A stretch of DNA of 64,000 bases from Blastococcus capsensis (GTDB lineage: Bacteria > Actinomycetota > Actinomycetes > Mycobacteriales > Geodermatophilaceae): NCBI RefSeq assembly GCF_030165005.1, contig NZ_JASNNW010000001.1, forward strand, positions 124,001 to 188,000, given 5' to 3'. The position numbers and the translations under genes were made by a program. Shown here in pieces: positions 5,111 through 24,760 of the stretch. Positions within the stretch are counted from its first letter, which is position 1, and each line of letters begins with the position of its first letter. The notes beneath the pieces were generated by a model that saw nothing but the letters and a program-made list of their open reading frames with translations, was not told where the DNA came from and did no database searches.

Positions 5111-5145
5111 GAGTACTTCACCGCTAAGGCATTCGACGCTAGGGT
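5111..5145 (+). promoter_or_regulatory. arcC promoter overlapped by shared catabolic operator (site A)
   Basis: The minus strand at 5114-5127 reads TTAGCGGTGAAGTA, one of five copies of a core found only upstream of the putative pyrimidine-catabolism genes. On the plus strand the same bases contain a -35-like TTCACC (5117-5122), then exactly 17 nt, then a -10-like TAGGGT (5140-5145). The GTG start of carbamate kinase begins 7 nt later, so the transcript is predicted to be leaderless. An operator on the -35 element fits repression by an unidentified regulator. Confidence 0.6.
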
Positions 5146-5152: not shown

Positions 5153-6124
5153 GTGACGTCGCCGCGCCGTGTCGTGATCGCCCTCGGGGGCAACGCCATG
5201 ACCGGACCGGACGGCTCGGCGACGCCGGAGGCGCAGCGGAACGCCATCCGGGAGGCGGCCGGCCACATCGCCGAGGTGGTCGCGGCCGGGGTCGAGGTCG
5301 TCCTGACCCACGGCAACGGCCCGCAGGTGGGCAACCTGCTGGTGAAGAACGAGCTGGCCGCGCACGAGGTGCCGCCGGTGCCGCTGGACTGGAACGTCGC
5401 GCAGACGCAGGCGACGATCGGTTTCACCGTCGCCGACGAGCTGGACGCCGCGCTGCGCGCCCGCGACCTGCCTCAGCGCACCGCCGCCCTCGTCACCCGC
5501 ACCCTCGTGGACGCCGACGACCCGCACTTCGCAGAGCCGTCCAAGCCGGTCGGTCGCCACCTGCCTCGCGAACAGGCGGACCGGTTCGTCACGCTCGGCC
5601 AGCGGTGGGAGGACCGCGGGGAGAAGGGCTGGCGCCGCGTCGTCGCCTCTCCCGAGCCGCGGGCCGTCGTCGATTCGGCGGCGGTGCACGCGCTGGTCGC
5701 CGCCGGGTTCGTCGTCGTGTGCGCCGGTGGCGGCGGCGTGCCGGTCGTCGACGACGGGGTGGACGGGCACGCGCTCCGCGGCGTCGAGGCCGTCATCGAC
5801 AAGGACCTGACCGCCGCGATCCTCGCCCGCGACGTCGACGCCGACACCTTGGTCATCGCCACCGACGTGCCGAACGTGATGGTCGACTTCGGCACCCCGT
5901 CGCAGCGCCCGCTGGGGCGGGTGACCGCCGCCGAGCTGCGGGAGCTGGCCGCGGCCGGCCAGTTCGCGCGCGGCTCGATGGGCCCCAAGGTCGAGGCCGC
6001 CCTCCGTTTCGTCGCGGGCGGCGACTCGGCAGACGGACGACGCAGAGCCGTCGTCACCACCCTCGAGCGCATCGCCGACGCCGTCAGCCGTGACGACGTC
6101 GGCACCGTCGTGACCAACTCCTGA
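5153..6124 (+). CDS. arcC: Carbamate kinase
   Basis: The 323-residue protein matches catabolic carbamate kinase, which converts carbamoyl phosphate and ADP to carbamate and ATP. Visible family signatures are ALGGNAM at the N-terminus, [10 protein letters not shown] near residue 50, the AGGGGVPV segment near 195, [12 protein letters not shown], and the C-terminal [10 protein letters not shown]. The GTG start at 5153 is supported by a leaderless promoter 7 nt upstream. No arginine deiminase or ornithine carbamoyltransferase is nearby. It is followed after 11 nt by a ring-opening amidohydrolase, so the carbamoyl phosphate more probably comes from pyrimidine-derived ureido acids, via FdrA/DUF1116 encoded at 15-18 kb. 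Confidence 0.93.
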
Positions 6125-6135
6125 AGGGAACCCGC

Positions 6136-7239
6136 ATGCCCGCACCGATCGAGGTCCGCAAGGTCCCGCTGCACAACGTCAGCGACGCCTCCGAGCTCGC
6201 CAAGCTCATCGACGACGGCGTGATCGAGGCCGACCGGGTCGTCGCCGTCATCGGCAAGACCGAGGGCAACGGCGGGATCAACGACTACACGCGGATCATC
6301 GCCGACCGAGCCTTCCGCGAGGTGCTGCTCGAGAAGGGCAGCCGGTCGCTCGAGGACGTCAAGCAGATCCCGATCGTGTGGTCCGGAGGCACGGACGGCG
6401 TCATCAGCCCGCACGCCACGATCTTCGCGACGCTGCCCGAGGACGCCGTCGAGAAGACCGACGAGCCGCGGCTGACCGTCGGCTACGCGATGAGCGACGT
6501 CCTGCTGCCCGAGGACATCGGCCGGCTCACCATGGTGGAGAAGGTCGCCGAGGGCGTGCAGCGGGCGATGGAGGCCGCCGGCATCACCGACCCCGCCGAC
6601 GTCCACTACGTGCAGACCAAGACGCCGCTGCTGACCATCGACACCATCCGCGACGCCCGCGAGCGCGGGCAGACGACGTACATGCAGGAGCCGCACGGCT
6701 CGATGGACCTCTCGAACGGCACGACGGCGCTCGGCATCGCGGTGGCGCTCGGCGAGATCGAGATGCCGACGCAGGAGCAGGTCATGCACGACCTCTCGCT
6801 GTACAGCTCCGTGGCCTCCTGCTCGTCGGGCGTCGAGCTGGATCGGGCGCAGATCGTCGTCGTCGGCAACGCCCGCGGGCACGGCGGCGCATACCGCGTC
6901 GGCCACTCGGTGATGACGGACGCCCTCGACCAGGACGGCATCTGGGCGGCCATCCGCGACGCCGGCCTGGAGCTGCCCGAGCGGCCGCACCACACCGACC
7001 TGGGCGACCGCCTGGTCAACGTGTTCCTCAAGTGCGAGGCCTCGCCCGACGGCAAGGTGCGCGGGCGGCGCAACGCGATGCTCGACGACTCCGACGTCTC
7101 CTGGCACCGGCAGATCAAGGCCTGCGTCGGCGGTGTGACGGCCTCGGTGACCGGCGACCCAGCGGCGTTCGTCTCGGTCGCGGCGGTGCACCAGGGGCCG
7201 TCGGGTGGCGGCCCGGTCGCCGCGATCGTCAGGGCGTGA
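6136..7239 (+). CDS. Ring-opening amidohydrolase (barbiturase / cyanuric acid hydrolase family)
   Basis: The 367-residue protein belongs to the small AtzD/barbiturase family, which opens barbiturate to ureidomalonate or cyanuric acid to carboxybiuret. The fold has three homologous units, each with a Lys and a Ser. Candidates are Lys in [10 protein letters not shown] with Ser in [11 protein letters not shown], Lys in VQTKTPLL with Ser in SCSSGVEL, and Lys in [11 protein letters not shown] with Ser in [12 protein letters not shown]. The spacing to carbamate kinase is 11 nt, with AGGGAA before the ATG, so the two form an operon. Co-regulation with a Mo hydroxylase and nucleobase permease favours barbiturate as the substrate. 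Cyanuric acid remains an alternative that sequence cannot exclude. Confidence 0.88.
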
Positions 7240-7619
7240 CGACAGCCCCGGGACATCGCAGCGAGCGGGAGGGCGACCTCGCCGACCGTCACGGGTCTCG
7301 GTCGTCGTCGCCAGGACGGTGCCGGCCTCTCCCACCAGGCGCAGGGAGGTCGCGTCGAGGGTGAACTCGAGCCCGGCCGGGGGCCTGCCTCGAACGCGAC
7401 TCCACGGGCGGTGCCGGCCAGAGCGACCGTGGGGGCGACCGTGAGCGTCGGGCCGCTGTTCAGATAGGCGCTCCAGCCGTCGGTGGCCCGGATGGAGACG
7501 TCGAGCCGCATGGCGGCGCCCTGAAGACCGGCGAGGTCCGGACCGCCGGCGGTGGAGGCGGAGGTGGTGGCAGCGACACCGGCGAGCAGAACGCGTGGCA
7601 GCCTCGACTCCTGTCCCAA
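7240..7619 (-). pseudogene. Degraded open frame of unknown family
   Basis: On the minus strand an ATG-started frame from 7619 gives a Ser/Ala/Thr-rich N-terminus and then a beta-like stretch (DVSIRATDGWSAYLNSGPTL, residues about 40-59). Near 7383 a one-base shift is needed to continue into a plausible second half (LEFTLDATSLRLVGEAG), and another shift is needed near the end. I do not recognise the family. The reading across two frameshifts suggests a decayed gene, but it may be chance. The stretch 7620-7823 carries only a short direct repeat (GCCTGATCGGGC) upstream of the receptor gene. Confidence 0.25.
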
Positions 7620-7823
7620 AAGGAACTGGAGTCACTGGGCAGACAATTCCGATGCGGTCACCGATTGGCATTCCCGACACATATGAGTGCCTGATCGGGC
7701 GCTCGATCGGCGCGCCTGATCGGGCCGTTGCACACGGGCCATCTACGGTCCCCCGGAACCCTCGCCGACACCGGGCGGGCCCAGGCCCGCGGTTCGCCGA
7801 GCAGCTGTGGGAGGGAGCGAGTC

Positions 7824-9086
7824 GTGCGCCGGTCGACACCGCGGGAGTTCGTGCCGCCCACCCCGTCCCCTGCGCCGCCCGCCGTCCCGGCGCCGCCGGC
7901 CGCGCGCCCGACCCGGCGGCGGGCCACCGAGCGGGACACCAGCATGGAAGCCGCCGCCCAGCAGGCCGGCGTCCTCGCCCAGGCCTCGCGCGAGGTGTCC
8001 GACACCTCGTCGGAGGCGGCCGCCTCCCTGGCCGAGCTGCGCTCCGCCATCGGTGACATCGCCGCCAGCACCGGCCGGGCGTCCACGATCGCCGAAGAGG
8101 CGGTGCGCGAGGCCCGCGCCGTCGACGAGCGGATCGCCGCGCTGCAGGCGGCGAGCGAGTCGATCACCGAGTTCGTGCGCCTGGTCAGCGCGATCAGCCA
8201 GCAGAGCCGCTTCCTCGCCCTCAACGCCTCCGTCGAGGCGGCCCGCGCCGGCGACGTGGGCCGCGGGTTCGCGGTGGTCGCGGACGAGGTGAAGGAGCTG
8301 GCCGGCCGCACCGCGCAGGCCGCTCAGGACATCGACGCGCAGATCACGGCCGTGCAGCAGGAGACCCAACTGGCGGTCGAGGCGGTGCGGCGCATCACCG
8401 GCACGCTCGGGTCCATCGCGGAGGCCCAGGACACCATCGCCGCCGCCGTCGAGCAGCAGCGCGCGGCCACCGATCGCGTCGTGGAGAACGTCGACCGTGC
8501 GGCAGACGGCTCCGCCCGGATCACCGAGGCCGTGGGGCAGCTGGCCGACAGCCAGCGCGTCGTCTACGTCCGCCGGGCGCTGGCCGTGGCCGAGCAGGTG
8601 CTCGCCGACCTGGGTGGCGCGCGGCTGGGCGAACGCCGGGCGACGCACACGGTGCGCGACCAGGCCACCGGCGCGACCCACAGCGCCCAGCTCGCCGACC
8701 TGCTGGTCGGTGAGACGGCCCTGGACCGCAGCGACGACCCGCGCCGGCCGTCGGTCCTCGTCGACGAGGTGGTGCGGCAGATCGGCGGCAGCTGCACCCT
8801 CTTCCAGCGCCTGGACGACGCCGGCAGCATGGTGCGAGCCGCGACCACGGTGATCAACCCGGCCGGACGGCGGAACGTGGGCACCTACATCGCCCGGACC
8901 GGCCCCGACGGCACTCCCAACCCGGTGCTGGCGGCGGTCCTCGCCGGCGAGACCTACACCGGCGCCGCCACCGTCGCCGATCGCCCCTACTTCACCGCCT
9001 ACACCGGGCTCTACGACGGGTCGGAGCTCATCGGCGTCCTCTACGTCGGCCTGCCGCTGGACTCGATGCCCGGTGCGGCCGGCTGA
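7824..9086 (+). CDS. Soluble methyl-accepting-type receptor with C-terminal Cache domain
   Basis: The protein of about 420 residues begins with a Pro/Arg-rich stretch, then a long coiled-coil MCP signalling region. The conserved hairpin tip reads LVSAISQQSRFLALNASVEA, followed by ARAGDVGRGFAVVADEVK. The C-terminal 150 residues resemble a single Cache ligand-binding domain (RPYFTAYTGLYDGSELIGVL near the end). There is no transmembrane segment, and the sensor comes after the signalling part, which is the reverse of ordinary chemoreceptors. The GTG start at 7824 has a strong GGAGGGAG seven nt upstream. No che genes are nearby, so the output partner is unknown. Confidence 0.8.
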   Translation: MRRSTPREFVPPTPSPAPPAVPAPPAARPTRRRATERDTSMEAAAQQAGVLAQASREVSDTSSEAAASLAELRSAIGDIAASTGRASTIAEEAVREARAVDERIAALQAASESITEFVRLVSAISQQSRFLALNASVEAARAGDVGRGFAVVADEVKELAGRTAQAAQDIDAQITAVQQETQLAVEAVRRITGTLGSIAEAQDTIAAAVEQQRAATDRVVENVDRAADGSARITEAVGQLADSQRVVYVRRALAVAEQVLADLGGARLGERRATHTVRDQATGATHSAQLADLLVGETALDRSDDPRRPSVLVDEVVRQIGGSCTLFQRLDDAGSMVRAATTVINPAGRRNVGTYIARTGPDGTPNPVLAAVLAGETYTGAATVADRPYFTAYTGLYDGSELIGVLYVGLPLDSMPGAAG

Positions 9087-9094
9087 CCTCCGAC

Positions 9095-9257
9095 CTTCCC
9101 CCGGGCAGCTCCACCGTCCTCCAGGTCGGGCGATCCCGGTGCGGCGACGCCGCTGGGCCACGAACCCCTGGACCGGATGCGCGACGGACTGCTCAGCGCC
9201 CTCGGCAGCCGCGGCGACGACGACATCGCCCTGCTGGCCATCCGCCTGCCGTCCTAA
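9095..9257 (+). pseudogene. C-terminal remnant of a SpoIIE/PP2C-type phosphatase
   Basis: One frame encodes LPPGSSTVL, typical of the strand preceding the YTDGL motif in SpoIIE phosphatases. After a deletion and frame change a second frame gives PLDRMRDGLLSALGSRGDDD and IALLAIRLPS followed by a stop at 9255-9257. That matches the family's C-terminus (DDDVALL). Compare the intact SpoIIE gene at 10381-12162. The YTDGL core is lost, so only a fragment about 160 nt long survives. Confidence 0.55.
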
Positions 9258-9374
9258 CCGTTGCCGCGCAGCGGACGCGCCGGGTCGCGCGCGGGTGCCG
9301 CGGCGGCCGTGATGCCCCACCATGGGTTCACCACCCGACACGGACGGCCGGCGCCGTCACCACGTAGGAGACCG

Positions 9375-10349
9375 ATGAAGTCCACCCGTCTGATCGCCGC
9401 CCTGCTCGCCGCCTCAGTGCTGACCGCCTGCGGCGGGGAGGACCCGGGATCTGGTGGCGAGGCGGCGGCGGACTTCCCGACCGAGAACGTGCGCCTGCTG
9501 GTGCCCTACACCGCCGGCGGGCCGACCGACATCGCGGCCCGTGCCCTGGCGAAGCACATGGAGGCCGAGCTCGACCAGTCCGTCGTCGTCGAGAACCTCC
9601 CCGGGGCCTCCGGCGCCACCGCTTACCAGCAGCTCATCGCCGCCGAGGCCGACGGGCACACCCTGTCGATGACCGCGCTCCCGACCGCGGTGCTGAACTA
9701 CCTGAGCAACGACGTCGGCTACACCGCCGAGGACTTCTCCTACATCGGCGTCGTCACCCGCGTGCCTTCGGGCATCCTGGTGCCGGCCGACTCCCCGTAC
9801 CAGGACCTGGAGTCGCTGTTCGCGGCCGCCGAGGCCGATCCCGGGTCCGTGACCGTCGGCACGCCCGGCGCCACGAACACGCACGCCGCGGAGACCCGGC
9901 GGATCACCCAGCTCTACGACGTGCCGCTCACCGTCGTGCCCTTCAACGGCAACGCGGAGGTGCAGACGGCGCTGCTCGGCGGGAACGTGACCGCCGGCTT
10001 CGTCAACCTCTCGCAGGACATGCTGCCGGCGGTCGAGTCCGGCGACCTGCGCGTCCTCGCCGTCGGCAGCGAGGAGCCTCTGCCGTACGTGGACGCGCCC
10101 ACGTTCGTCGAGCTGGGCTTCCCCGAGCTGGTCCAGAGCACGACCACCTTCGGGGTGATCGCGCCCGCCGGGGTCCCCGACGAGGTGACGCAGACCCTCG
10201 AGGACACGCTGCGCAGCGCAGCGGAGGAGTCGTCCGTCGTGGAGACGCTGGACGAGCGGTACGTGCCCGAGGAGTTCATCGGCAGCGAGGGCCTGGCCGA
10301 GCTGTTCGCCGAGACCGAGGAGACCTTCCGCGACGTGATGACCGACTGA
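9375..10349 (+). CDS. TctC-family extracytoplasmic solute-binding lipoprotein
   Basis: This 324-residue protein has a lipoprotein signal (MKSTRLIAALLAASVLTAC, lipobox cysteine at about 19). It then shows the TctC/Bug fold signatures, including VRLLVPYTAGGPTDIAARAL, VVENLPGASGATA and FGVIAPAGVPDEV. Such proteins capture carboxylates outside the membrane for a TctAB permease or act as sensor ligands. No TctAB lies beside it; the only complete TctABC set is 30 kb away, so it may feed that permease or act alone. TAGGAG sits four nt before the ATG. Confidence 0.9.
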   Translation: MKSTRLIAALLAASVLTACGGEDPGSGGEAAADFPTENVRLLVPYTAGGPTDIAARALAKHMEAELDQSVVVENLPGASGATAYQQLIAAEADGHTLSMTALPTAVLNYLSNDVGYTAEDFSYIGVVTRVPSGILVPADSPYQDLESLFAAAEADPGSVTVGTPGATNTHAAETRRITQLYDVPLTVVPFNGNAEVQTALLGGNVTAGFVNLSQDMLPAVESGDLRVLAVGSEEPLPYVDAPTFVELGFPELVQSTTTFGVIAPAGVPDEVTQTLEDTLRSAAEESSVVETLDERYVPEEFIGSEGLAELFAETEETFRDVMTD

Positions 10350-10380
10350 GCGGGCAGCCGGCGCCGGCCGCCTGCCGCGC

Positions 10381-12162: not shown

Positions 12163-12182
12163 ACGTGTTGTGCCCGATCATC

Positions 12183-12743: not shown

Positions 12744-12938
12744 GCCGATCAGTGTGGGCCGCGAGTGACCGGACGTCGTCCGGCAGGTCGGCCGGCCACC
12801 GATGTCAGCGAACGCGGCGCGTGATGGTGGGCGCAGACCCATCCTTCCCCGCAGTCGGTTCCTGGCGACAGCCGAGGCCGCACACCGCCAGGATCGCTGC
12901 TGCCCGCTACCGCGACGGCGGTCGCGCCGATCACGCGG

Positions 12939-13508: not shown

Positions 13509-13600
13509 CCACCGGTCGGGACGGCTGGCTCCGGCGCCGCCGTCGAACGCTTGCTCACCTGCGGCCCCGCCTGACGGGCCGACCCGCTCGCCGGACCATG

Positions 13601-13638
13601 CGAACGGGGGCGATCAGTCGCTGATGGCCACGAGTTCG
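13601..13638. repeat. Degenerate hairpin repeat (second copy of the 15.2-kb element)
   Basis: The right arm CTGATGGCCACGAGTTCG is identical to part of the long hairpin at 15173-15229. The left arm (CGAACGGGGGCGATCAG) pairs imperfectly with it around a 3-nt loop. It lies between the S4 gene and the ECF sigma gene, in their shared upstream region. Identity of 20 nt between the two copies (13620-13639) indicates a small dispersed repeat family rather than two independent terminators. Confidence 0.5.
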
Positions 13639-13749
13639 TAGGAGTCGGTGCGGCGCTGAGCAGGTCACCCGTCCCGCCGCCGTGCATCTCACGTTTCCGC
13701 GCCGGCCTGCCGATGACATGGCAGATCCCATGCCGGCAGGAGGTGCGAG

Positions 13750-15158: not shown

Positions 15159-15172
15159 TCCGAACAGCTCAC

Positions 15173-15229
15173 CGAGTGCGACGGACTCGTGGTCATCACC
15201 GGCTGATGGCCACGAGTTCGTCGCACTCG
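15173..15229. terminator. Very long hairpin: bidirectional terminator or dispersed repeat
   Basis: Two 26-nt arms (15173-15198 and 15204-15229) pair along their full length with two G-U wobbles and a 5-nt loop. The element lies between the convergent anti-sigma and DUF1116 genes, where a bidirectional terminator is expected. The stem is much longer than a typical terminator, and 20 nt of it recurs at 13620-13639, so it may be a mobile hairpin repeat used as a terminator. Confidence 0.75.
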
Positions 15230-15236
15230 ACGCGCG

Positions 15237-16655
15237 TCAGACGGTGCGGACCTCCTCGGCGAGCGCCGCGAGCGCCTGCTCGAAGCACTGCTGCGGCGGC
15301 TGCACCAGCCCGGCGCCGACCTGTCCGGTGCCGGCGATCCGCCCGGCCATGCCGGTGTTGATCTGCGGCAGCCAGCCGGTGCGCGCCACCTTCAGCACGT
15401 CGATGCCGGTCGGCGAGCCGCGGAAGCCCATGATCGGGATCGCCATCGCGGGGTTCTCGGTGAGCGTCAGCTGGTACATCCGCTCGGTCGTCGCCAGGGC
15501 GTCGGGGACGGTGCCGCCGACGAACCGGACGATCGCGGGAGCCGCGGCCATCGCGAAGCCGCCGATGCCGTAGGTCTCCATGATCGTGGAGTCGCCGATG
15601 TCGGGGTTGGCGTCGTCGGGGCCGTAATCGCCGAGGAAGAGGCCGACCGGGGTGTTGGCCGGTGCGGTGAACCAGCGGTCGCCGGTGCCGGCGGTCCGGA
15701 TGCCGAAGTCCGTTCCGTTGCGGGCCATGACGGTGACCATCGTGGAGCCCGGGACGCCGCGGGCGGCGTCCATCGCGAGCTTCGCCGTCGGCATGCCCAG
15801 GTTGAGGAAGAAGTGCTCGTTGCCGCCGATGAAGCGCAGCACCGCGGCGATGTCCGACGAGGGCGCGTCGGTGGCCACGACCAGCGGTGACAGCTCGCGC
15901 AGCGTCATGAGCGATCCGGCGCGGTTGCGGTTGTGCCCCTCGTCGCCCATCTGGAGCATCTGCGCCAGCACAGCCTTGACGTCGAGCGGGTCGTTGCCCG
16001 CGTCGATGGAGCCGCGGACGGCCTGGGACAACACCGGGCCGAGCACGTCGCGCATCCAGCGCAGCCGCGCCTGCACCTCCTCGTTGAAGGCGCCCATCCG
16101 CAGCACCTTGCCGAGGCCCTCGTTGAGGTTGCAGAACGCCTGCCCACCGCCGACCGGGTCCTCCAGGCACCACATCCACATCGACGGGCTCGTGACGCCG
16201 GCCATCGGGCCGACGGTGCGGTGGTGGTGGCAGGGGTCGAGGGTGACGGCGCCGGTGGAGAGCAGGATCTCCGCCTCCTCGACGTCGGCCGCCCACCCCT
16301 CGAACAGGCAGGCCCCGATCAGCGCGCCGCGCATCGGCCCGGAGGCGGCCTCCCAGGTCAGCGGCGGCCCCGAGTGCAGCAGGGTGCGGTCGGCCAGGCC
16401 GATCACCTCGCGGGCCGGCCGGACGTCGACGAGCACCGATCCGGCGGCGAGCACCCGCTCGACGGCGGTGCGGTTCGCCGCGGCGCGGCGGGCGTCCAGG
16501 GCCAGCGCGGCGAGATCGGCCGGGTCGCCGAAGCCCGGCGGGCGCCAGTCGACGTCAGAGACAGCGGCACCCTGGGCGCGCAGCGCGTCGGAGAAGACGT
16601 CGACCCCGGCCGCCACGATGGACGGCGGGCCGGAGAGCAGGTTCCCGAGCGTCAT
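15237..16655 (-). CDS. DUF1116 (YlbE-like) protein, putative carbamoyltransferase subunit
   Basis: The 472-residue protein is a DUF1116/YlbE family member. Recognisable conserved segments are DVDWRPPGFGD, LHSGPPLTWEAASGPMRGAL, DPCHHHRTVGPMAGVTSPSM, NEGLGKVLRMGA, and SMIDAGNDPLDVK-like and GIRTAG stretches in the central part. In E. coli the YlbE protein (AllG) works with FdrA (AllF) and a third protein in oxamate carbamoyltransferase, which cleaves oxalurate to oxamate and carbamoyl phosphate. Here it overlaps fdrA by four bases, and no DUF2877 (YlbF/AllH) gene is visible in the window. A ureido acid made by the barbiturase is the likeliest substrate. This is inference from gene family and co-regulation. 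Confidence 0.8.
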   Translation of the reverse strand: MTLGNLLSGPPSIVAAGVDVFSDALRAQGAAVSDVDWRPPGFGDPADLAALALDARRAAANRTAVERVLAAGSVLVDVRPAREVIGLADRTLLHSGPPLTWEAASGPMRGALIGACLFEGWAADVEEAEILLSTGAVTLDPCHHHRTVGPMAGVTSPSMWMWCLEDPVGGGQAFCNLNEGLGKVLRMGAFNEEVQARLRWMRDVLGPVLSQAVRGSIDAGNDPLDVKAVLAQMLQMGDEGHNRNRAGSLMTLRELSPLVVATDAPSSDIAAVLRFIGGNEHFFLNLGMPTAKLAMDAARGVPGSTMVTVMARNGTDFGIRTAGTGDRWFTAPANTPVGLFLGDYGPDDANPDIGDSTIMETYGIGGFAMAAAPAIVRFVGGTVPDALATTERMYQLTLTENPAMAIPIMGFRGSPTGIDVLKVARTGWLPQINTGMAGRIAGTGQVGAGLVQPPQQCFEQALAALAEEVRTV

Positions 16656-18172
16656 GCCGAAGCTCCCAGCAGGTCGAGGGCGTACCGCGTGGCGGCGGCG
16701 TTGGACGAGAAGACGGCGGCACCGGCGGCGGCCAGGGCATCGGCCTGGCGCGACCAGCCCTGCGGATCACTCTCCGTGCCGATCAGTGCGATGACGACGG
16801 GCAGCTGCTTCTGCGCCCGCGCCGCCTGGAGCGCGGGGGCCAGCGCACCGGCCGGGTCGGGGTCGGCTCCGTAGCCGAGGACGACGTCGAGCAGCAGGAC
16901 GGCGGGCTCGTCGGAGGCGGCCAGGCCGGCGATGGCCTCCAGCCGCAGCGTCGGGTCGATCATCGGGTGTGCGCGCCCCACGGTGAGGGCGTCGTCGCCG
17001 AAGTCGATGACCAGGTGGCCGGAGGCGGACAGGTCTGGGGCGGATGGGTCGACGACGAAGCCGAGCCCGGGCTCCAGCGGGGTGTTCGAGCGGATGCCGC
17101 CGAGAACCGGGGAGGCCAGCAGCATCGCCTCGTCGGCCAGCGTGCCGCCGGAGTAGAGCCCCTTGAGCACCGCGCCGGGCACGACCGCCTCGGCCGGCCC
17201 GGGACGGGACGGCCACACCGGGACGTCGAAGCCCAGGTCCGTCAGGAGCGCCTCGACGGCGGCGGTGAGGTCGGGGCTCTCCGGCGACAGCGCGGCCGAC
17301 CGGACCGGGACGCCGAGCCCCTCGGCGAACGACGTCACCGCGGCGGCCACTGACGGCGCCGGGGGCTTGGACACGAGCAGGACCCGCTCGGTGGCGGGGT
17401 CGGCGTCCAGGGCCGCCAGTGCGTCCAGCGTGGCGAGGCCACCGACGGCCTCGGACAGGTCGCGCCCGCCGACGCCGAGCACGTGCGAGACGCCGACGCC
17501 GGCCATGTCGAGCAGGCAGGAGACCTGCTGGGCGCCGGTGCCGGAGGCGGCGACCAGCCCGACCGGCCCGGGGCGGATGACGTTGGCGAAACCGAGGGCG
17601 ACGCCGGACACGATCGCCGTTCCGCAGTCGGGGCCCATGACCAGGACGCCGGCCTGGTGCGCGGCTCGCTTCAGCGCCACCTCCTGCTCGACCGGCACGC
17701 CGTCGGAGAAGACCAGCACGCTGCGGCCGGCGGCGATCGCGTCAGCGGCCTCGGCGGCGGCGTATGCCCCGGGCACGCTGACGATCGCCAGGGCCGGCGT
17801 CTCGTGCGACAGGTCGTCGAGCCCCGCACCGACGGTGCGGTGCGGAACGGCGTCGGCGGTGCCGGTGGAGCGCTCCCGCTCGGCGAGAGCGGCGTCGACG
17901 TCGGCGAGCGCGGCGGCCAGCGCGTCGTCGTCCTCGGCCCGCACGGCGATCAGCAGCTGCTCGGGCGAGGACTCGCCGTCGGGAGCCAGGCCCATGCCGA
18001 CGGCGAGCTCGAGGTTCAGCGGGGTCGCCATGGCGACCAGCACGGCCCAGACGCCGTCGCGCGCGCCGATCCGGCGGCTCACCTGCATCAGCTTGACCGA
18101 GTCGGCGTAGACCCCGGATCGAAGCTGGACCGAGACCGCCGGGTCTCCACCGGAGGGGGCTGAGGGGCTCAT
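16652..18172 (-). CDS. fdrA: FdrA-family protein, putative carbamoyltransferase subunit
   Basis: This 506-residue protein has the succinyl-CoA-synthetase-like folds of FdrA. An N-terminal domain (SGVYADSVKLMQVSRRI) is followed by two CoA-ligase-like modules with GPDCGTAIV, GLVAASGTGAQQVSCLLDMA, LYSGGTLADEAM and the late VLLLDVVLGYGADPDP. E. coli FdrA was long called an acyl-CoA synthetase but is now linked to oxamate carbamoyltransferase. It precedes and overlaps the DUF1116 gene. The ATG start is supported by a predicted leaderless promoter whose -10 (TACGGT) ends six nt before it. The divergent neighbour is a nucleobase permease, and both carry the shared operator. Confidence 0.85.
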   Translation of the reverse strand: MSPSAPSGGDPAVSVQLRSGVYADSVKLMQVSRRIGARDGVWAVLVAMATPLNLELAVGMGLAPDGESSPEQLLIAVRAEDDDALAAALADVDAALAERERSTGTADAVPHRTVGAGLDDLSHETPALAIVSVPGAYAAAEAADAIAAGRSVLVFSDGVPVEQEVALKRAAHQAGVLVMGPDCGTAIVSGVALGFANVIRPGPVGLVAASGTGAQQVSCLLDMAGVGVSHVLGVGGRDLSEAVGGLATLDALAALDADPATERVLLVSKPPAPSVAAAVTSFAEGLGVPVRSAALSPESPDLTAAVEALLTDLGFDVPVWPSRPGPAEAVVPGAVLKGLYSGGTLADEAMLLASPVLGGIRSNTPLEPGLGFVVDPSAPDLSASGHLVIDFGDDALTVGRAHPMIDPTLRLEAIAGLAASDEPAVLLLDVVLGYGADPDPAGALAPALQAARAQKQLPVVIALIGTESDPQGWSRQADALAAAGAAVFSSNAAATRYALDLLGASA

Positions 18173-18178
18173 CCCCGG

Positions 18179-18210
18179 ACCGTACCGACCGATCTCTCAG
18201 CGGTGAAGTA
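18179..18210 (-). promoter_or_regulatory. fdrA promoter overlapped by shared operator (site B)
   Basis: On the minus strand TTCACC (18202-18207), 17 nt, then TACGGT (18179-18184) lead to the fdrA ATG after six nt, the same architecture as the arcC promoter at 5117-5145. The plus strand at 18197-18210 reads TCAGCGGTGAAGTA, a copy of the shared operator lying over the -35 element. A leaderless transcript is predicted. Confidence 0.6.
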
Positions 18211-18234
18211 TCGGCATCTGCGTGCAACAACGAT

Positions 18235-18283
18235 TTAGCGTTGAGGTACTTCCGTCAGAGGTGTGTGCGGTGACACAGTGACG
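18235..18283 (+). promoter_or_regulatory. Permease promoter region with shared operator (site C)
   Basis: TTAGCGTTGAGGTA at 18235-18248 is a copy of the shared core. After the TACTT at its end come 17 nt and then GGTGACACAGTGACG (18269-18283). Almost the same second block (GGTGACAGAGTGACG) follows site D after 16 nt. The paired blocks suggest a common promoter architecture for the permease and molybdenum hydroxylase operons, although I cannot assign clear -35 and -10 boxes. The permease start is about 100 nt downstream. Confidence 0.55.
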
Positions 18284-18351
18284 CCGCGCGGTGGGACGAC
18301 GCCCGTCGACCGGCACCGCATCGAGTCGAAGTGCACGTCGAGGAGGCACTC

Positions 18352-19833
18352 ATGGCGTTCGGGTGGAAGCTCTACGGGGACGGCAAGACGCCCCCGCTCG
18401 GAGAGGCCGTCGCTCCTGACGAACGCCTCTCCTGGCCGCGCACGGTCGGGATCGGCGCACAGCACGTCGTCGCCATGTTCGGGGCGACCTTCGTCTTCCC
18501 GCTGATCATGGGGCTGGACGCCAACCTCGCCATCATGATGAGCGGCGTCGCGACGATCATCTTCCTGCTGATCGTGAAGGGGCAGGTGCCCAGCTACCTG
18601 GGCACGAGCGCCGCCTTCGTCGGCGGCGTCCTCGCGGTACGAGCCCAGACGGACAGCGACGCCGCGGTCCTGGGCGCCATCCTGGTGTCCGGGGTCGTGC
18701 TGGCCCTGGCCGGCCTGGTCATCCACTTCATGGGCGCCCGGGCGATCAACGCCGCGCTCCCCCCGGCCGTCACCGGCGCCGTCGTCATGCTGATCGGCTT
18801 CAACCTGGCCCCGGTCGTGGCCGGGGTGTACTGGCCGCAGGACCAGTGGGTCGGCCTGGCGACCATGACCTTCGTGATCGTTGCGTCGCTGCTGCTGCGC
18901 GGCTTCTGGTCGCGCATCTCCATCCTGCTCGGCCTCATCTTCGGCTACCTGCTCTCGGTCCTGCTCGATGTGACGGCCGGCCCGATCACCTCCTTCGACC
19001 CGAGCACCGGCGGGGAGACCACCCGCGACCGGATCAACTTCGATGCGGTCGCCCAGGCCGACTGGATCGGCCTGCCGGAGTTCACCGCGCCCAGCTTCTC
19101 GGTCAACTTCAGCCTGCTGGTGCTGCCCGCCGTCATCGCCCTGATCGCCGAGAACGCCGGGCACGTCAAGGCGGTCGCGGCGATGACCAAGCGCGACCTG
19201 GACCCCGTCATGGGCCGCGCGGTCTTCGCCGACGGCGTCGCCACCGTCGTCGCCACCTCGGTCGGCGGCTCCCCGACGACGACGTACGCGGAGAACATCG
19301 GCGTCATGGCCGCCACCCGCGTCTACTCGACGGCGGCCTACTACGTGGCCGCGGTCGTCGCCATCCTGCTGGGCCTGGTGCCCAAGTTCGGCGCGCTGAT
19401 CAACATCATCCCGGGTGGCGTGCTGGGCGGGATCACCGTCGTCCTCTACGGGATGATCGGCCTGCTGGGCGCCAAGATCTGGAAGGAGAACCGGGTCGAC
19501 TTCGCCAACCCGATCAACCTGGTGCCCCTGGCCGCCGGGATCATCATCGCGATCGGCAACGTCACCCTGAACGTCACCGACACCTTCCCGCTCAGCGGCA
19601 TCGCGTTCGGCACGATCGTCGTCGTCGTCGGCTGGCACATCGCCCGGGCCGTCGCGCCCCCGGAGATGAAGGCCGCACTCCTGGAGGAGGACGGATTCGT
19701 GGGCGGAACCGGCCCGACCCTGGGGCACGCCGGGGGCCACGAGGTGCGACCCGACCCGTCGTCCGTCGACCAGGTCGGCCGCCCCGGTGTTCTCGGCGGC
19801 AGCACGCCCGGAGAGGGCGCGCACCGCCGGTAG
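18352..19833 (+). CDS. NCS2-family nucleobase:cation symporter
   Basis: The protein of about 493 residues is a uracil/xanthine permease. It has about twelve to fourteen hydrophobic segments. The N-terminal GAQHVVAMFGATFVFPLIMG contains the QH pair of NCS2 carriers, and AENAGHVKAVAAM and SVGGSPTTTYAENIGVMAAT form the substrate-binding TM8/TM10 region (Glu and the conserved NIG segment). The C-terminus is hydrophilic. I chose the ATG at 18352 because AGGAGG lies five nt upstream; a GTG at 18331 lacks one. The family carries uracil, xanthine, or urate. The operator shared with barbiturase and the Mo hydroxylase favours a pyrimidine. Confidence 0.92.
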   Translation: MAFGWKLYGDGKTPPLGEAVAPDERLSWPRTVGIGAQHVVAMFGATFVFPLIMGLDANLAIMMSGVATIIFLLIVKGQVPSYLGTSAAFVGGVLAVRAQTDSDAAVLGAILVSGVVLALAGLVIHFMGARAINAALPPAVTGAVVMLIGFNLAPVVAGVYWPQDQWVGLATMTFVIVASLLLRGFWSRISILLGLIFGYLLSVLLDVTAGPITSFDPSTGGETTRDRINFDAVAQADWIGLPEFTAPSFSVNFSLLVLPAVIALIAENAGHVKAVAAMTKRDLDPVMGRAVFADGVATVVATSVGGSPTTTYAENIGVMAATRVYSTAAYYVAAVVAILLGLVPKFGALINIIPGGVLGGITVVLYGMIGLLGAKIWKENRVDFANPINLVPLAAGIIIAIGNVTLNVTDTFPLSGIAFGTIVVVVGWHIARAVAPPEMKAALLEEDGFVGGTGPTLGHAGGHEVRPDPSSVDQVGRPGVLGGSTPGEGAHRR

Positions 19834-20007
19834 CCGCTCGTCCGCTCCGTCGCACCCCGTGGTCCCCGGCGCTCCGAACGAGGTCTCCGGACCCCGTTCG
19901 AGGCCCGGGGACGGCGTGCGTCCGGGGGGCGTCGCCGGGAAAGCACGGATCCTGCGACGGACGGTCCCGGCCGGCCGGTGGCGTTCCGGTGGCGCCGTGG
20001 CGAAGTT

Positions 20008-20055
20008 TTAGCGCTGAGGTACTTTCGCCCGCCTCCGGCCGGTGACAGAGTGACG
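20008..20055 (+). promoter_or_regulatory. Molybdenum hydroxylase promoter region with shared operator (site D)
   Basis: TTAGCGCTGAGGTA at 20008-20021 is a copy of the shared core, here with a perfectly palindromic AGCGCT centre. It is followed after 16 nt by GGTGACAGAGTGACG (20041-20055), nearly identical to the block downstream of site C. The first structural gene starts at 20092. The remaining gap from 19834 to 20007 shows no gene. Confidence 0.6.
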
Positions 20056-20091
20056 TCTCCGCAGCCGTTCGCACGGAGGTGACCGCAGCCG

Positions 20092-20967
20092 GTGAAGCCA
20101 GCCCCCTTCCGCTACGCCGACCCAGGCTCCCTGGACGAGGCCCTCGAGGTCCTCGCCGAGGAGGGCGCCAAGGTGCTGGCCGGGGGCCAGTCACTGCTGC
20201 CGTTGCTCTCGATGCGCCTCGCGGCGCCGGCCACGCTCGTCGACATCAACCGGGTGCCCGGCCTGGACTCGATCGAGGTCACCGGGGACGGCGTGACGGT
20301 AGGGGCACTCGTTCGGCACAACTCGCTGCTGCACGACGACGCCGCCGCCCGGAGCCAGCCGCTGCTGACCCGCGCGACGGCGAACGTCGCGCACCCGGCG
20401 GTCCGGAACCGCGGCACCACCGTCGGCTCGATCGCACACGCCGACCCGTCCGGCGAGATGACGGCGGTGCTCGCGCTGACCGACGGCTCGGTCACGGTGG
20501 CGGGCGCGGCCGGCTCCGAGGTCGTGGGCTGGCGGGACCTCTTCGTCGGCCCGCTGGAGACGTCGATCGCCGGGCCCGCCGTCGTCACCTCCGCCTTCTT
20601 CCCCGCGCTGCCACCGCGGTCGGGGACCGCGTTCCAGGAGGTCGCCCGCCGCAAGGGCGACTACGCCGTCTGCGGCGCGGGCGTCGTCGTCACGCTCGAC
20701 GCCGGCCGGCGCGTGGCGTCCGTCCGCGCCTCCTATGTCTCGGTGGGGCTGACCCCCGAGGTGCACGACCTGACCGAGGCGGTCGCCGGGTCGCCGGTGG
20801 AGAAGGCCGACTGGGCCGCCGCCGGCGCACTGGCCCGCACGCTGGTCGACCCGGACACCGACATCCACGCCAGCGCCCACTACCGGCGCCTGCTGGTGGG
20901 CGTGCTGACCGAGAGAACTCTTGCCGAGGCTGCCGCCGAAGCCGCCGCGAGAGCGACGCGCGAGTGA
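20092..20967 (+). CDS. Molybdenum hydroxylase FAD-binding subunit
   Basis: This 291-residue protein is the medium (CoxM/CutM/XdhB-like) subunit that carries FAD and accepts electrons from the iron-sulfur subunit. FAD-binding motifs are AGGQSLLPLLSMRLA near residue 30 and TTVGSIAHADPSGE near 105; CoxM-type subunits usually read TIGGSLAHADP there. The C-terminal domain shows SVGLTP and an AHYRRLL segment. GGAGGTGA lies upstream of the GTG. It is the first gene of an FAD, 2Fe-2S, Mo, CoxG order. Confidence 0.92.
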   Translation: MKPAPFRYADPGSLDEALEVLAEEGAKVLAGGQSLLPLLSMRLAAPATLVDINRVPGLDSIEVTGDGVTVGALVRHNSLLHDDAAARSQPLLTRATANVAHPAVRNRGTTVGSIAHADPSGEMTAVLALTDGSVTVAGAAGSEVVGWRDLFVGPLETSIAGPAVVTSAFFPALPPRSGTAFQEVARRKGDYAVCGAGVVVTLDAGRRVASVRASYVSVGLTPEVHDLTEAVAGSPVEKADWAAAGALARTLVDPDTDIHASAHYRRLLVGVLTERTLAEAAAEAAARATRE

Positions 20968-21040
20968 GCATCGCAGCGAGCGCCGGCGAGCGAGGAGCGG
21001 AGCGAGTGCGGAACCGAGCCACCAACAGAGGGAGGGCCGC

Positions 21041-21556
21041 ATGACCGGTGTCGACACGGAGCGGACGATCGCCGTCACGGTGAACGGTGTTCCACGTGAA
21101 GCCACCGTGCCGGTCCGCCGGCTGCTGTCCGACGCGCTGCGGCACGACCTGGGGCTGACCGGCACGCACGTCGGCTGCGAGCACGGCGTGTGCGGGGCAT
21201 GCACGGTGATCGTGGACGGCGACCCGGTCCGCTCGTGCCTGATGCTCGCCGTCCAGGTGGACGGGTCGTCGGTGCGCACGGTGGAGGGGCTGGCGCGCGA
21301 CGACCACCAGGGCGGCCAGGTGCTGCACCCGGTGCAGGAGGCGTTCCGCGAGTGCCACGCCCTGCAGTGCGGCTTCTGCACGCCGGGCTTCCTGATGACG
21401 ATCGCCGCGGGGCTCGAATCGCGGGACAACGCGCAGGAGATCTCCGAGGAGGAGGTCGACGAACTGGTCGGCGGAAACCTCTGCCGGTGCACCGGCTACG
21501 CCAACATCAAGAAGGCCGTGCGCCACGCCGCCACCGCGATGAAGGACGACGCGTGA
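21041..21556 (+). CDS. Molybdenum hydroxylase 2Fe-2S subunit
   Basis: The 171-residue small subunit binds two 2Fe-2S clusters and passes electrons from the molybdenum site to FAD. The plant-type cluster ligands are in GCEHGVCGACTVIVDG and the RSC that follows; the second set is in CGFCTPGFLM and GNLCRCTGY. Its length and spacing are normal for the family. GAGGGAGG precedes the ATG. The 73-nt gap before it holds short repeats of the GAGCGGAGCGAG type. Confidence 0.95.
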   Translation: MTGVDTERTIAVTVNGVPREATVPVRRLLSDALRHDLGLTGTHVGCEHGVCGACTVIVDGDPVRSCLMLAVQVDGSSVRTVEGLARDDHQGGQVLHPVQEAFRECHALQCGFCTPGFLMTIAAGLESRDNAQEISEEEVDELVGGNLCRCTGYANIKKAVRHAATAMKDDA

Positions 21557-21668
21557 CGCCCGCGGCCCGCCTGAGCCGCGCCAACCGATGGAAAGCCGCG
21601 TCACGGCCCGGCTTCCCATCCGGCGCCGCGGCTCCGGCTCCGGTCGATGCGGCCATGGAGGAGGCCCG

Positions 21669-24092
21669 ATGACGACGAAGCTCTTCGGGGAGCCGGTCCG
21701 CCGGCGCGAGGACCAGCGGCTGATCACCGGCAAGGGCCGCTACCTCGACGACATCGGCCCGAACGCGCTGGCCGCCGCCTTCGTGCGCAGCCCGCACGCG
21801 CACGCCCGGATCGTGGACATCGACGTCGACGCCGCCCTCGAGGTCGAGGGCCTGGTCGCGATCTACACCTACGAGGACCTCACCGGCCCGATGGCCGAGC
21901 CGCTGCCGGTGCTCATCCCGCACCCGCAGATGCATGCGCCGCGGACGGGGTTCCCGCTGGCAAACGGCGAGGTCAACCACGTGGGCGAGCCGATCGTCAT
22001 GGTGGTCGCCACCGACCGGTACGTGGCCGAGGACGCCTGCGACCGCATCCTCGTCACCTACGAGGAGCTGCCGGTCGTCGTCGGCGTGGACGTCGCCCGA
22101 GCGGCGACCGCGGCGGTGCACGAGGAGATCCCCGACAACGTCGCGGCCCGGCACCACCAGGAGACCGGCGACGTCGAGCCGGCGCTGGCCGCCTCGCCGC
22201 GGACGCTGTCCTTCACCCAGTACATCGAGCGGAGCGCCTGCATGCCCATGGAGGGCAAGGGCGTGCACGCGCGCTGGGACTCCGACGACCGGTCGCTGCG
22301 GGTCTACACGAGCACCCAGGCGTCGACGTCGGTGCGCGCGGCGATCGCGGCGAAACTGGACCTGAGCCTGGACAAGGTCGAGGTGATCGCGCCCGACGTC
22401 GGGGGCGGGTTCGGCGTGAAGATCGTGCACCCGTGGCCGGAGGAGCTGCTGGTGCCGATGGCCGCGATCGCGCTCGGCCAGGAGGTGAAGTGGGCCGAGG
22501 ACCGGCGCGAGCACTTCATCGGCTCCGCCCACGAGCGGCAGCAGCGGCAGGAGATCACCGTCGGGTACGACGACGACGGCCGGATCACCGCGCTCGACGT
22601 CCACATCTGGCACGACAACGGCGCGTACACGCCCTACGGGATCATCGTGCCGATCGTGACGGCGACCCAGCTGGTCGGGCCGTACGTGATCCCGGTGTAC
22701 CGGGTGGTCGTGGAGTCGGTGTTCACCAACACCGTGATCGTGACGCCGTACCGCGGCGCCGGGCGGCCGCAGGGCTGCTACGCGATGGAACGCACGATGG
22801 ACCGCATCGCCGACGACCTCGGGCTGGACCGGGCGCTGGTCCGCGAGCGGAACCTGATCCAGACCGACCAGTTCCCCTACGACCACCACCTGACGTTCCA
22901 GGACGGCCGGCCGGTCATCTACGACTCGGGTGACTACCCCGGCCTGCTGGACAAGCTGCGGACGCTGGTCGGCTGGTCCGAGGCCGACCGGCTGCGGGCC
23001 GAGGCGGCCACGCGCGGGAAGCTGCTCGGCGTCGGCATGGCGATGTACGTGGAGGGGACCGGGCCCGGCCCGTACGAGGGCGGGCACGTGCAGGTGCTGG
23101 GCAGCGGCAAGGTCCTGGTGTCGACCGGGCTGACCTCGCAGGGGCAGGGCCACGAGACGGCGTTCGCGCAGATCGTGGCCTCGGAGCTCGGCGTCCCGAT
23201 CGAGGACGTCGAGGTGACCACCGGCGACACCCGGCGCTTCGGGTACGCCGTCGGCACCTTCGCCTCGCGGGCCGCGGTGATGAGCGGCAACGCGATCGCC
23301 CTGGCCGCCCGCGGGGTGCGGGAGAAGGCGCTGCGCATCGCGGCGGACGTGCTGGAGGCCGCGCCGGAGGATCTCGAGATCGACGAGGGCCTGGTGCAGG
23401 TGAAGGGTGTGCCGGGGACGTCGATCCCGCTGCGGACGGTGGCCGTCCTGTCCAACCCGCTGCGGTACGCGTTCGACGAGGCGGCGAAGCAGGCGACGCA
23501 GTTCGCGCGGGCCGGGTCGGACGACAAGCCGCCCGTCGCCGAGGGCGACGCGCCGGGCCTGGAGCACCGCGACTACTACTCGCCGATCCGGTCGACGTTC
23601 GCGTCGGGCGCCCACGCGGCGATCGTGGAGATCGACCCGGCGACGTGGGAGATCGACGTCGTGAAGTACGCGGTGGTGCACGACTGCGGCAACGTCGTGA
23701 ACCCGATGATCGTCGAGGGCCAGGTGCACGGCGGCGTCGCGCAGGGCGTGGGGGGTGCGTTGTACGAGCGGATGGCCTACGACGCCGACGGGCAGCTGCA
23801 GAACGCCTCGTTCATGGACTTCCTGATGCCTTACGCCTCCGAGGTGCCGGACATCGACATCGACCACCAGCAGACGCCGTCGCCGCTGAACCCGCTGGGC
23901 ATCAAGGGCGCCGGCGAGGCGGGCGTGATCCCGGGGACGGCGGCGATCGCCTCGGCGATCGAGGACGCGGTGGGCCGGCGGATCACGTCGATGCCCATCT
24001 CGCCGACCGAGCTGTACGACCTGGTGCGAAACCCCACGGCTGAACGGACGGCCGCCGCTGAGCGCCGTTCCGAGAACGGAGTTCTGGCGTGA
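21669..24092 (+). CDS. Molybdenum hydroxylase large subunit (putative uracil dehydrogenase)
   Basis: This 807-residue protein is the Mo-cofactor subunit of a xanthine-dehydrogenase-family hydroxylase. Visible motifs are DDIGPNALAAAFVRSPHAHA, DVGGGFGVK, PYRGAGRPQGCYAMER, SQGQGHETAFAQI, and the active-site Glu in GAGEAGVIPG. The CO-dehydrogenase active loop (AYXCSFR) is absent; PYRGAGRP stands in its place, so it is not CO dehydrogenase. The ATG at 21669 has GGAGGAGG just upstream. Co-regulation with barbiturase and a nucleobase permease makes oxidation of uracil or thymine at C6 the best guess. A xanthine or nicotinate type substrate is possible. Confidence 0.9.
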   Translation: MTTKLFGEPVRRREDQRLITGKGRYLDDIGPNALAAAFVRSPHAHARIVDIDVDAALEVEGLVAIYTYEDLTGPMAEPLPVLIPHPQMHAPRTGFPLANGEVNHVGEPIVMVVATDRYVAEDACDRILVTYEELPVVVGVDVARAATAAVHEEIPDNVAARHHQETGDVEPALAASPRTLSFTQYIERSACMPMEGKGVHARWDSDDRSLRVYTSTQASTSVRAAIAAKLDLSLDKVEVIAPDVGGGFGVKIVHPWPEELLVPMAAIALGQEVKWAEDRREHFIGSAHERQQRQEITVGYDDDGRITALDVHIWHDNGAYTPYGIIVPIVTATQLVGPYVIPVYRVVVESVFTNTVIVTPYRGAGRPQGCYAMERTMDRIADDLGLDRALVRERNLIQTDQFPYDHHLTFQDGRPVIYDSGDYPGLLDKLRTLVGWSEADRLRAEAATRGKLLGVGMAMYVEGTGPGPYEGGHVQVLGSGKVLVSTGLTSQGQGHETAFAQIVASELGVPIEDVEVTTGDTRRFGYAVGTFASRAAVMSGNAIALAARGVREKALRIAADVLEAAPEDLEIDEGLVQVKGVPGTSIPLRTVAVLSNPLRYAFDEAAKQATQFARAGSDDKPPVAEGDAPGLEHRDYYSPIRSTFASGAHAAIVEIDPATWEIDVVKYAVVHDCGNVVNPMIVEGQVHGGVAQGVGGALYERMAYDADGQLQNASFMDFLMPYASEVPDIDIDHQQTPSPLNPLGIKGAGEAGVIPGTAAIASAIEDAVGRRITSMPISPTELYDLVRNPTAERTAAAERRSENGVLA

Positions 24093-24760
24093 ACCTGGAC
24101 GGCTCTGCGGTGCTGCACGGCGACCCGGACAAGGTGTGGTCGGTGATCACCGACCCGGCGGTGCTGGCGCGGACGATCCCGGGCTGCGAGACGCTGGAGC
24201 AGGTCGGGGACGACGAGTACCGGATGAACGTCTCCGTCGGCGTCGGCGCGATCCGCGGGACGTACGCGGGCGAGGTGAAGCTGGCCGACAAGCAGCACCC
24301 GACGTCCTACGTGATGCACGCGTCCGGCGCCGGTGCGCCGGGCAACGCGCGGGCGACGGTGACGATCAACCTGTCGCCGGCCGAGGACGGGAAGACGAAC
24401 CTCACCTACTCGGCCGACGCCGTGATCGGCGGCCCGGTGGCGGGTGTGGGCCAGCGGATGATCACCGGTGTGGCCAAGCGGATGGCCGGCCAGTTCTTCA
24501 AGGCGATCGACGACGAGCTGACCGGTGCCGCGGCGGCTGCTCCGTCTGCGGCAGCGGTGAGCTCGACGTCGGAGGCCGACGCAGCTGGCAACCACGCCGT
24601 CCCGGCAGGTGAGGCTGCTCCGGCGGTGTTCGCCGGCCGCGCCGGCATTCCCGCGGGCACGTCCGGCGACGTGCAGACCTTGGCGCTCGGTGCCGTCGGC
24701 GGCGCCGTCCTGACCCTGATCGGCGTCCTGATCGGCTACCGCCTCGGTCGCCAACGCTAG
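24089..24760 (+). CDS. CoxG-like SRPBCC protein with C-terminal membrane anchor
   Basis: The 223-residue protein has an N-terminal START/SRPBCC domain typical of CoxG (SAVLHGDPDKVWSVITDPAV, IPGCETLEQVGDDEY, RMITGVAKRMAGQFF). A flexible Ala/Pro-rich linker follows, then one C-terminal transmembrane helix (LGAVGGAVLTLIGVLIGY) with a basic tail. In CO-oxidising bacteria CoxG recruits the Mo hydroxylase to the membrane and quinone pool. The start overlaps the stop of the Mo subunit (GTGA). It suggests that electrons from this hydroxylase enter the respiratory chain rather than NAD+. Confidence 0.9.
   Translation: MNLDGSAVLHGDPDKVWSVITDPAVLARTIPGCETLEQVGDDEYRMNVSVGVGAIRGTYAGEVKLADKQHPTSYVMHASGAGAPGNARATVTINLSPAEDGKTNLTYSADAVIGGPVAGVGQRMITGVAKRMAGQFFKAIDDELTGAAAAAPSAAAVSSTSEADAAGNHAVPAGEAAPAVFAGRAGIPAGTSGDVQTLALGAVGGAVLTLIGVLIGYRLGRQR

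Follow-up and report, generated by a model that had tools for sequence, protein, structure and literature searches.

The classical oxidative pyrimidine pathway proceeds through a barbiturase and a ureidomalonase (PMC3758960). A second described system, Escherichia coli AllFGH, makes carbamoyl phosphate from oxalurate by phosphorolysis, needs AllF, AllG, and AllH together, and is stated to have no similarity to YgeW or other transcarbamylases (PMC11326118), while YgeW/YqeA of E. coli reductive urate degradation carry out a reversible ureido phosphorolysis to carbamoyl phosphate, from which ATP is then made (PMC12507026). Here we describe a gene cluster in a 64,000-nucleotide stretch of the Blastococcus capsensis genome (contig NZ_JASNNW010000001.1, positions 124,001 to 188,000; hereafter the window), itself part of a 4.39-Mb genome of 51 contigs, that combines a barbiturase-type ring opener, a molybdenum (Mo) hydroxylase, and a nucleobase permease with FdrA (AllF), AllG (DUF1116), and the carbamate kinase ArcC. 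The best available reading of this cluster, and in our judgment a probable one, is a dispersed, co-regulated oxidative pyrimidine pathway that would end in carbamoyl phosphate and ATP rather than in urea.

In the proposed pathway, the permease would import uracil, a form II CoxL-type Mo hydroxylase would oxidize it to barbiturate, and the barbiturase would open the barbiturate ring to give ureidomalonate (N-carbamoyl-malonamate). FdrA/AllF and AllG, with a probable contribution from an AllH encoded elsewhere, would cleave ureidomalonate with phosphate to malonamate and carbamoyl phosphate, which carbamate kinase would convert to ATP, NH3, and CO2. Malonamate would presumably be deamidated to malonate, and a class III CoA-transferase could then form malonyl-CoA for decarboxylation to acetyl-CoA. 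Oxalurate, ureidomalonate, and 1-carboxybiuret have a common chemistry: each is the N-carbamoyl amide of a short carboxylate. We infer each reaction of these particular proteins, and the phosphorolysis above all, from sequence; the gene identities, a common operator, a conserved association of the genes, and their partial exchange with amidases can be read from the genomes directly, and the last three favor ureidomalonate phosphorolysis. A preliminary description of the window had assigned this reaction to FdrA and DUF1116, and the proposal is partly supported by co-occurrence, operator, and exchange, but only partly, since E. coli requires AllH and the locus lacks it.

Conserved association and a common operator

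The ring opener belongs to the AtzD/TrzD fold family (PF09663, 489 bits; TIGR02714, 585 bits) and is barbiturase-type by sequence: its closest solved relative is 5hwe, "Barbiturase" (645 bits; the highest-scoring cyanuric acid hydrolase reaches 334), the catalytic Ser226/Lys156 dyad is kept as Ser228 and Lys162, and the position of Arg188 in cyanuric acid hydrolases is taken by Asn194, the same residue as in aligned 5hwe. According to PMC4051656, Arg188 is found in all subgroups but two and the barbiturase subgroup residue is given as glutamine, whereas our alignment places asparagine in both the window protein and 5hwe. The family was found in 27 of 396 actinobacterial genomes, 22 of which encode barbiturase-type members that carry Asn and are 66% or more identical to the window protein; two of the other five have Arg, and three are divergent, with Asn but without the catalytic Ser226, so that the residue alone does not define the barbiturase group.

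AllG was present in all 22 barbiturase-type genomes, in none of the 5 with other family members, and in 27 of the remaining 369 genomes, which lack the ring-opener family; these and the associations that follow are raw genome counts, uncorrected for phylogeny. Barbiturase and AllG genes shared 17 contigs, with 14 pairs within ∼10 kb of each other. Among 117 relatives, 63 had both, 7 barbiturase only, 3 AllG only, and 44 neither, the barbiturase-only genomes being one with a cyanuric-type protein (G050), G454, G458, and four fragmented assemblies that are 74 to 95% complete. Within the genus (23 genomes), 10 had both genes and 13 neither. AllG lay within the stretch examined in 39 of 80 named barbiturase loci; whole genomes were searched for 34 of the other 41, and 7 loci on short contigs were left out, giving a comparison set of 73. 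Where arcC lies beside the barbiturase gene, AllG occurs in the genome in 63 of 66 cases, the three loci without it (L177, L184, and L185) being metagenome assemblies, versus 1 of 7 where arcC is absent. Loci lacking both are confined to Modestobacter (L156 and L160), a Rhodococcus type (L182, L192, and L195), and Tomitella (L189), which amounts to only about three independent losses.

FdrA and AllG have 3dmy and 3clq as solved relatives, and FdrA scores 390.7 bits against NF004760, below the cutoff of 433. In an AllG tree of 48 of 60 loci (a locus was kept if its AllG alignment reached 330 residues), 35 barbiturase-linked rows form one clade (support 99/93) together with a single barbiturase-less row (G504). 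Outside it fall the AllG of two cyanuric acid plasmids, the AllG from contig C18 (locus L018), the second one in this genome, and E. coli AllG (L238), the placement of which is uncertain, as it and L217 are long branches and the joining of L238 with L018 is unsure. The C18 AllG is part of a second AllH-FdrA-AllG cluster with a carbamate kinase homologue, divergent from a PucR gene, which also holds a protein with an allophanate hydrolase C-terminal domain.

One motif, the 14-bp operator YAGCGNTGARGTAY, is common to the intergenic regions of the cluster. All 4 of its exact sites in the genome lie within this cluster; allowing two mismatches, the window holds 8 sites against 3.2 expected, a number reached by none of 100 shuffles, and the reversed pattern has no exact site in the genome. 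Since the pattern was derived from these four sites, the independent evidence is its conservation in relatives. Searching the 150 bp that precede each gene in Geodermatophilaceae loci, with a single mismatch allowed, we found the operator before arcC in 45 of 48, before fdrA in 31 of 34, and before the permease gene in 23 of 29 (the latter two genes often have one divergent region in common), but before coxM in only 8 of 32. Control genes gave none (AllG, 0/38; barbiturase, 0/52; KptA, 0/20), and 9 of 480 random windows of the same loci scored as well. Outside the family the operator was absent before arcC (0/28), fdrA (0/4), permease (0/7), and coxM (0/3). The operator common to pathway genes in the preliminary description is thus confirmed by four exact copies, all here, and by its retention across Geodermatophilaceae.

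Geodermatophilaceae genomes with a barbiturase contain 98 exact sites. Of these, 74 lie within 20 kb of the barbiturase gene (in 41 of 56 such genomes), 5 mark a CoA-transferase/decarboxylase operon, 4 belong to a permease-PucR-AllH group, and the other 15 are scattered. Gene order was checked at every one of the five CoA-transferase sites and at three of the four beside AllH; the two of the 15 that were inspected are both inside coding regions. The CoA-transferase sites stand at the start of the operon in five relatives, which fits the expected malonate end product. In the window's own genome, a decarboxylase homologue is found on contig C23, with no exact operator and no CoA-transferase within the 8 kb examined. 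This genome has 11 one-mismatch sites, and only the one before hyuA is near a gene matching the pathway queries.

Partial exchange with amidases and alternative readings

Rhodococcus is the source of the classical oxidative pyrimidine route. An amidase lies in or adjoins four of the six loci that lack both AllG and arcC (L182, L192, L195, and L156). The three Rhodococcus-type clusters among them encode two amidases, a carboxyltransferase-like protein that is a candidate malonyl-CoA decarboxylase, XdhC, PucR, a permease, and CoxM, to which L182 adds a CoA-transferase. In G454 (the genome of L156) and G458, both without AllG, an exact operator precedes an amidase gene, and urease is present. We consider the amidases of the AllG-less loci candidate ureidomalonases, and the pattern looks like, though not cleanly, an exchange of a hydrolytic branch (to urea and malonate) for a phosphorolytic one. 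A malonamidase role for these amidases was also considered and set aside: against solved chains, GatA-type and other amidases rank above malonamidase E2 for the Rhodococcoides amidase, a result that speaks neither for nor against it.

Several observations weigh against the proposed pathway, in addition to the uncorrected counts noted above. The exchange is not clean, since amidases ∼40% identical to the Rhodococcoides amidase also occur in the loci of several AllG-containing genomes, and since no amidase was found in the stretch examined of L160, which ends inside hyuB, or in 16 kb of L189. A Trujillonella locus (L143) has AllG in its genome but no arcC match. No malonamate amidase was found in the window, and the presence of HyuAB finds no explanation in the pathway. 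The ring opener passes the cutoff of NF052395 (cyanuric acid amidohydrolase), although the 5hwe score and the asparagine do not indicate the preference for cyanuric acid that the preliminary description had considered. Urease is encoded in 38 of the 63 relatives with both barbiturase and AllG; within the genus it is found in 1 of 10 barbiturase genomes versus 6 of 13 barbiturase-less ones, and an absence of urease as the general explanation was set aside because it holds in the genus and fails in the wider set. The AllH hallmark motif was not found in the window and occurs in the genome on contigs C8 and C18 only. The AllH gene on C8 is divergent from a PucR gene, as it is beside AllFG in distant relatives (G062, G085, G422, G445, and G434), so that C8 may supply the AllH of the pathway; in three Modestobacter-group genomes, an operator-bearing permease gene adjoins PucR-AllH. 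All 13 barbiturase-less genomes of the genus nevertheless keep AllH (with PucR beside it in 5 of the 5 inspected), and a relocated AllH dedicated to the regulon was set aside on that account.

It appears very unlikely that FdrA and AllG are an oxalurate (purine) enzyme in a general nucleobase regulon, with ureidomalonate hydrolyzed to urea and malonate by an enzyme encoded elsewhere. Oxalurate phosphorolysis is the only characterized AllFGH reaction that we found, PucR-type regulators and NCS2 permeases are known from purine metabolism as well, and a comammox allFGHK set beside triuret genes has been interpreted as an oxalurate degradation route (PMC12625717); yet AllG accompanies the barbiturase-type ring openers and not the other family members, within the genus it is present or absent together with the barbiturase, its barbiturase-linked clade is separate, and the same genome holds the second AllH-FdrA-AllG-kinase cluster beside a PucR gene of its own. 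No allantoin gene was found among the window open reading frames scanned, and no urease alpha subunit was found in the genome. For the possibility, raised in the preliminary description, that the two proteins act only on oxalurate, the position of AllG apart from E. coli AllG and the C18 cluster speaks against it. We regard as equally improbable a scheme in which HyuAB or an unlinked amidase serves as the ureidomalonase and FdrA, AllG, and ArcC act on another carbamoyl compound, e.g., one derived from thymine or cytosine. Relatives of HyuAB open cyclic ureides, the nearest solved chain being an N-methylhydantoinase; an operator-like site precedes hyuA here, and HyuA and HyuB are 86% and 93% identical to their counterparts in a Modestobacter barbiturase cluster. 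HyuAB matches occur in the stretches examined of 18 of 80 named barbiturase loci, including the AllG-less L156, L160, and L189, and in 16 of the 28 loci L172 to L199 (L195 at only 28% identity). Set against this, six named loci lack arcC and AllG together, with an amidase inside or next to the locus in at least four cases, and HyuAB accompanies FdrA/AllG and CoxL in three barbiturase-less clusters (L082, L085, and L086, with only HyuB mapped in the last), so that it has no exclusive link to ureidomalonate. When a single mismatch is allowed, the operator precedes hyuA in neither of 2 family loci and in 1 of 14 outside the family; we therefore rejected HyuAB as a firm regulon member, the one-mismatch site being confined to the window, and treat hyuAB as a possible member beyond the cluster. 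That it opens 5-methylbarbiturate is speculation. As for an unlinked amidase, the preliminary description had named a ureidomalonase encoded nearby as a counterindication: in an amidase search that, for this genome, was confined to the window, there was no Ami1/Ami2 match at 1e-10, and a six-frame scan gave no amidase signature.

A further alternative concerns only the first step, namely that the Mo hydroxylase is a CO dehydrogenase or a hydroxylase of another N-heterocycle and the pathway starts elsewhere, still passing through ureidomalonate. The NCBIfam name of the large subunit is aerobic CO dehydrogenase group 5, large subunits 52 to 53% identical occur in barbiturase-less clusters, and the operator precedes coxM in only 8 of 32 family loci. 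The closest solved relative, however, is quinoline 2-oxidoreductase (1t3q), which hydroxylates a nitrogen heterocycle, and a CoxM-like subunit adjoins the permease and barbiturase genes in three Rhodococcus-type loci. Form I CoxL carries the active-site loop AYXCSFR; the loop of the window protein is PYRGAGR and does not match it. We consider this alternative unlikely, and continue to favor uracil oxidation feeding ureidomalonate phosphorolysis.

Layout of the window

Pfam and NCBIfam scans recovered every gene named in the preliminary description, at or near the position it had given (Table 1). ArcC passes the NCBIfam carbamate kinase model NF009007 (285.8; cutoff, 266) and falls below the cutoff of TIGR00746 (329.7 versus 358), in both cases scored within a longer reading frame. 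The permease falls below the equivalog cutoff of TIGR03616 RutG (378 versus 759 bits). The fdrA and allG genes overlap by 4 bp, and the CoxS-like subunit probably starts later than listed. The two halves of the cluster are separated by MCP, TctC, PP2C, KptA, and ECF sigma factor genes without an evident link to the pathway; in distant relatives a frequent gene order is barbiturase, permease, ArcC, AllH, FdrA, AllG, and CoxMSLG.

Table 1. Coordinates of the cluster genes, operator copies, and hyuAB in the window
Feature	Position	Strand	Remarks
Operator copy before arcC-bar	5113..5126	-	Exact YAGCGNTGARGTAY
Carbamate kinase, arcC	5153..6124	+	323 aa from GTG 5153; AA_kinase PF00696
Barbiturase-type ring-opening amidohydrolase, AtzD/barbiturase family	6136..7239	+	PF09663; PDB 5hwe; Asn at Arg188-equivalent
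AllG/DUF1116 (YlbE family), proposed ureidomalonate phosphorolysis subunit	15237..16655	-	PF06545, 313 bits; barbiturase-linked clade
FdrA/AllF, proposed ureidomalonate phosphorolysis subunit	16652..18172	-	NF004760; PDB 3dmy "Protein fdrA"
Operator copy 1, between fdrA and permease	18198..18211	+	Exact match
Operator copy 2, between fdrA and permease	18236..18249	+	Exact match
NCS2 nucleobase permease, closest to RutG/uracil permeases	18331..19833	+	PF00860
Operator copy before Mo hydroxylase operon	20009..20022	+	Exact match
Mo hydroxylase FAD subunit, CoxM-like	20092..20967	+	PF00941, PF03450
Mo hydroxylase 2Fe-2S subunit, CoxS-like	20921..21556	+	PF01799, PF00111 from residue 52 on
Mo hydroxylase large subunit, form II CoxL-like, proposed uracil-to-barbiturate hydroxylase	21588..24092	+	NF040766, 1465 bits; 1t3q
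CoxG-like accessory protein	24089..24760	+	PF06240
Operator-like site, 1 mismatch	54234..54247	-	Ends 12 bp before hyuA ATG
HyuA, hydantoinase/oxoprolinase-type subunit	54260..56335	+	PF01968; nearest solved chain PDB 7hk5, N-methylhydantoinase
HyuB subunit	56332..58203	+	PF02538

Other features of the window were observed alongside the cluster. A chemoreceptor-like protein (7728 to 9086) has the MCP signaling domain first and the Cache domain after it, an inversion of the usual arrangement, and homologues are found near barbiturase genes in several related loci. A 20-base direct repeat (13620 to 13639 and 15202 to 15221, from overlapping 16-mers) flanks the ECF sigma factor gene and the next open reading frame. 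Between 39175 and 44945, genes for a class III CoA-transferase and an enoyl-CoA hydratase accompany TctA and TctC genes; the group may serve to take up and metabolize a di- or tricarboxylate.

Significance and relation to known systems

The host is a soil actinobacterium, and if the proposed pathway operates, the last uracil fragment would be recovered as carbamoyl phosphate and not lost as urea. The oxidative pyrimidine pathway would gain a branch that yields ATP, and AllFGH, an enzyme identified only recently, would have a second physiological substrate. To our knowledge, uracil dehydrogenase and ureidomalonase are enzymes without assigned genes, and the loci described here offer candidates for both: the Mo hydroxylase for the former and the amidases of the Rhodococcus-type clusters for the latter, with those clusters also a source of candidate uracil dehydrogenase genes. 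Some large subunits annotated as aerobic CO dehydrogenase would then be nucleobase hydroxylases, which bears on surveys of soil CO oxidation. In the literature searched, which included few subscription papers, no paper with both barbiturase and fdrA and no description of the branch appeared among the matches listed, in agreement with the preliminary description, which had called it undescribed.

The association with ring openers recurs on the two plasmids examined; among plasmid records overall, ring-opener matches occur in 132 and AllG matches in 193. On Aminobacter sp. SR38 pSR8 (L239) and Citrobacter farmeri pCCRI24236-4 (L241), fdrA-DUF1116-arcC (with DUF2877) adjoin cyanuric acid hydrolase genes; the pSR8 ring opener aligns to PDB 5t13 without a difference, and that of pCCRI24236-4 has the cyanuric-type Arg. 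Cyanuric acid hydrolase yields 1-carboxybiuret, the aza-analogue of ureidomalonate. Cyanuric acid, too, may be degraded by phosphorolysis, and the cassette beside these hydrolases suggests a route not previously recognized for a common disinfectant stabilizer. We give even odds to a broader reading, in which AllFG(H)-ArcC would be a cassette for energy-conserving ureide phosphorolysis in general, placed behind AtzD/barbiturase-family openers on two or more occasions (for ureidomalonate from barbiturate in Actinobacteria and for 1-carboxybiuret from cyanuric acid on proteobacterial plasmids), each time with carbamoyl phosphate and ATP in place of a hydrolytic loss of urea or ammonia.

The proposed branch would be a variant of known pathways. 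With E. coli AllFGH and AllK (PMC11326118 and PMC9843812), the window module has in common the FdrA and DUF1116 subunits, the carbamate kinase partner, the proposed use of an N-carbamoyl amide carboxylate as substrate, and carbamoyl phosphate as product; it differs in being joined to a barbiturase and a Mo hydroxylase, not to allantoin genes, in the clade of its AllG, in having AllH outside the locus, and in a proposed substrate one CH2 longer. The step proposed for it, ureido phosphorolysis to carbamoyl phosphate and then ATP, is like that of YgeW/YqeA. TrzD/cyanuric acid hydrolase clusters share the ring-opener family and, on plasmids, also adjoin fdrA-DUF1116-arcC, but have Arg, not Asn, at the Arg188 position, and no Mo hydroxylase is annotated in the two stretches examined. 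With the classical pathway the cluster shares its barbiturase, which in three Rhodococcus-type loci also clusters with a permease and a Mo hydroxylase subunit; there, amidases are present, arcC is missing, and the genomes lack AllG, whereas in the window the putative phosphorolytic module stands in that place.

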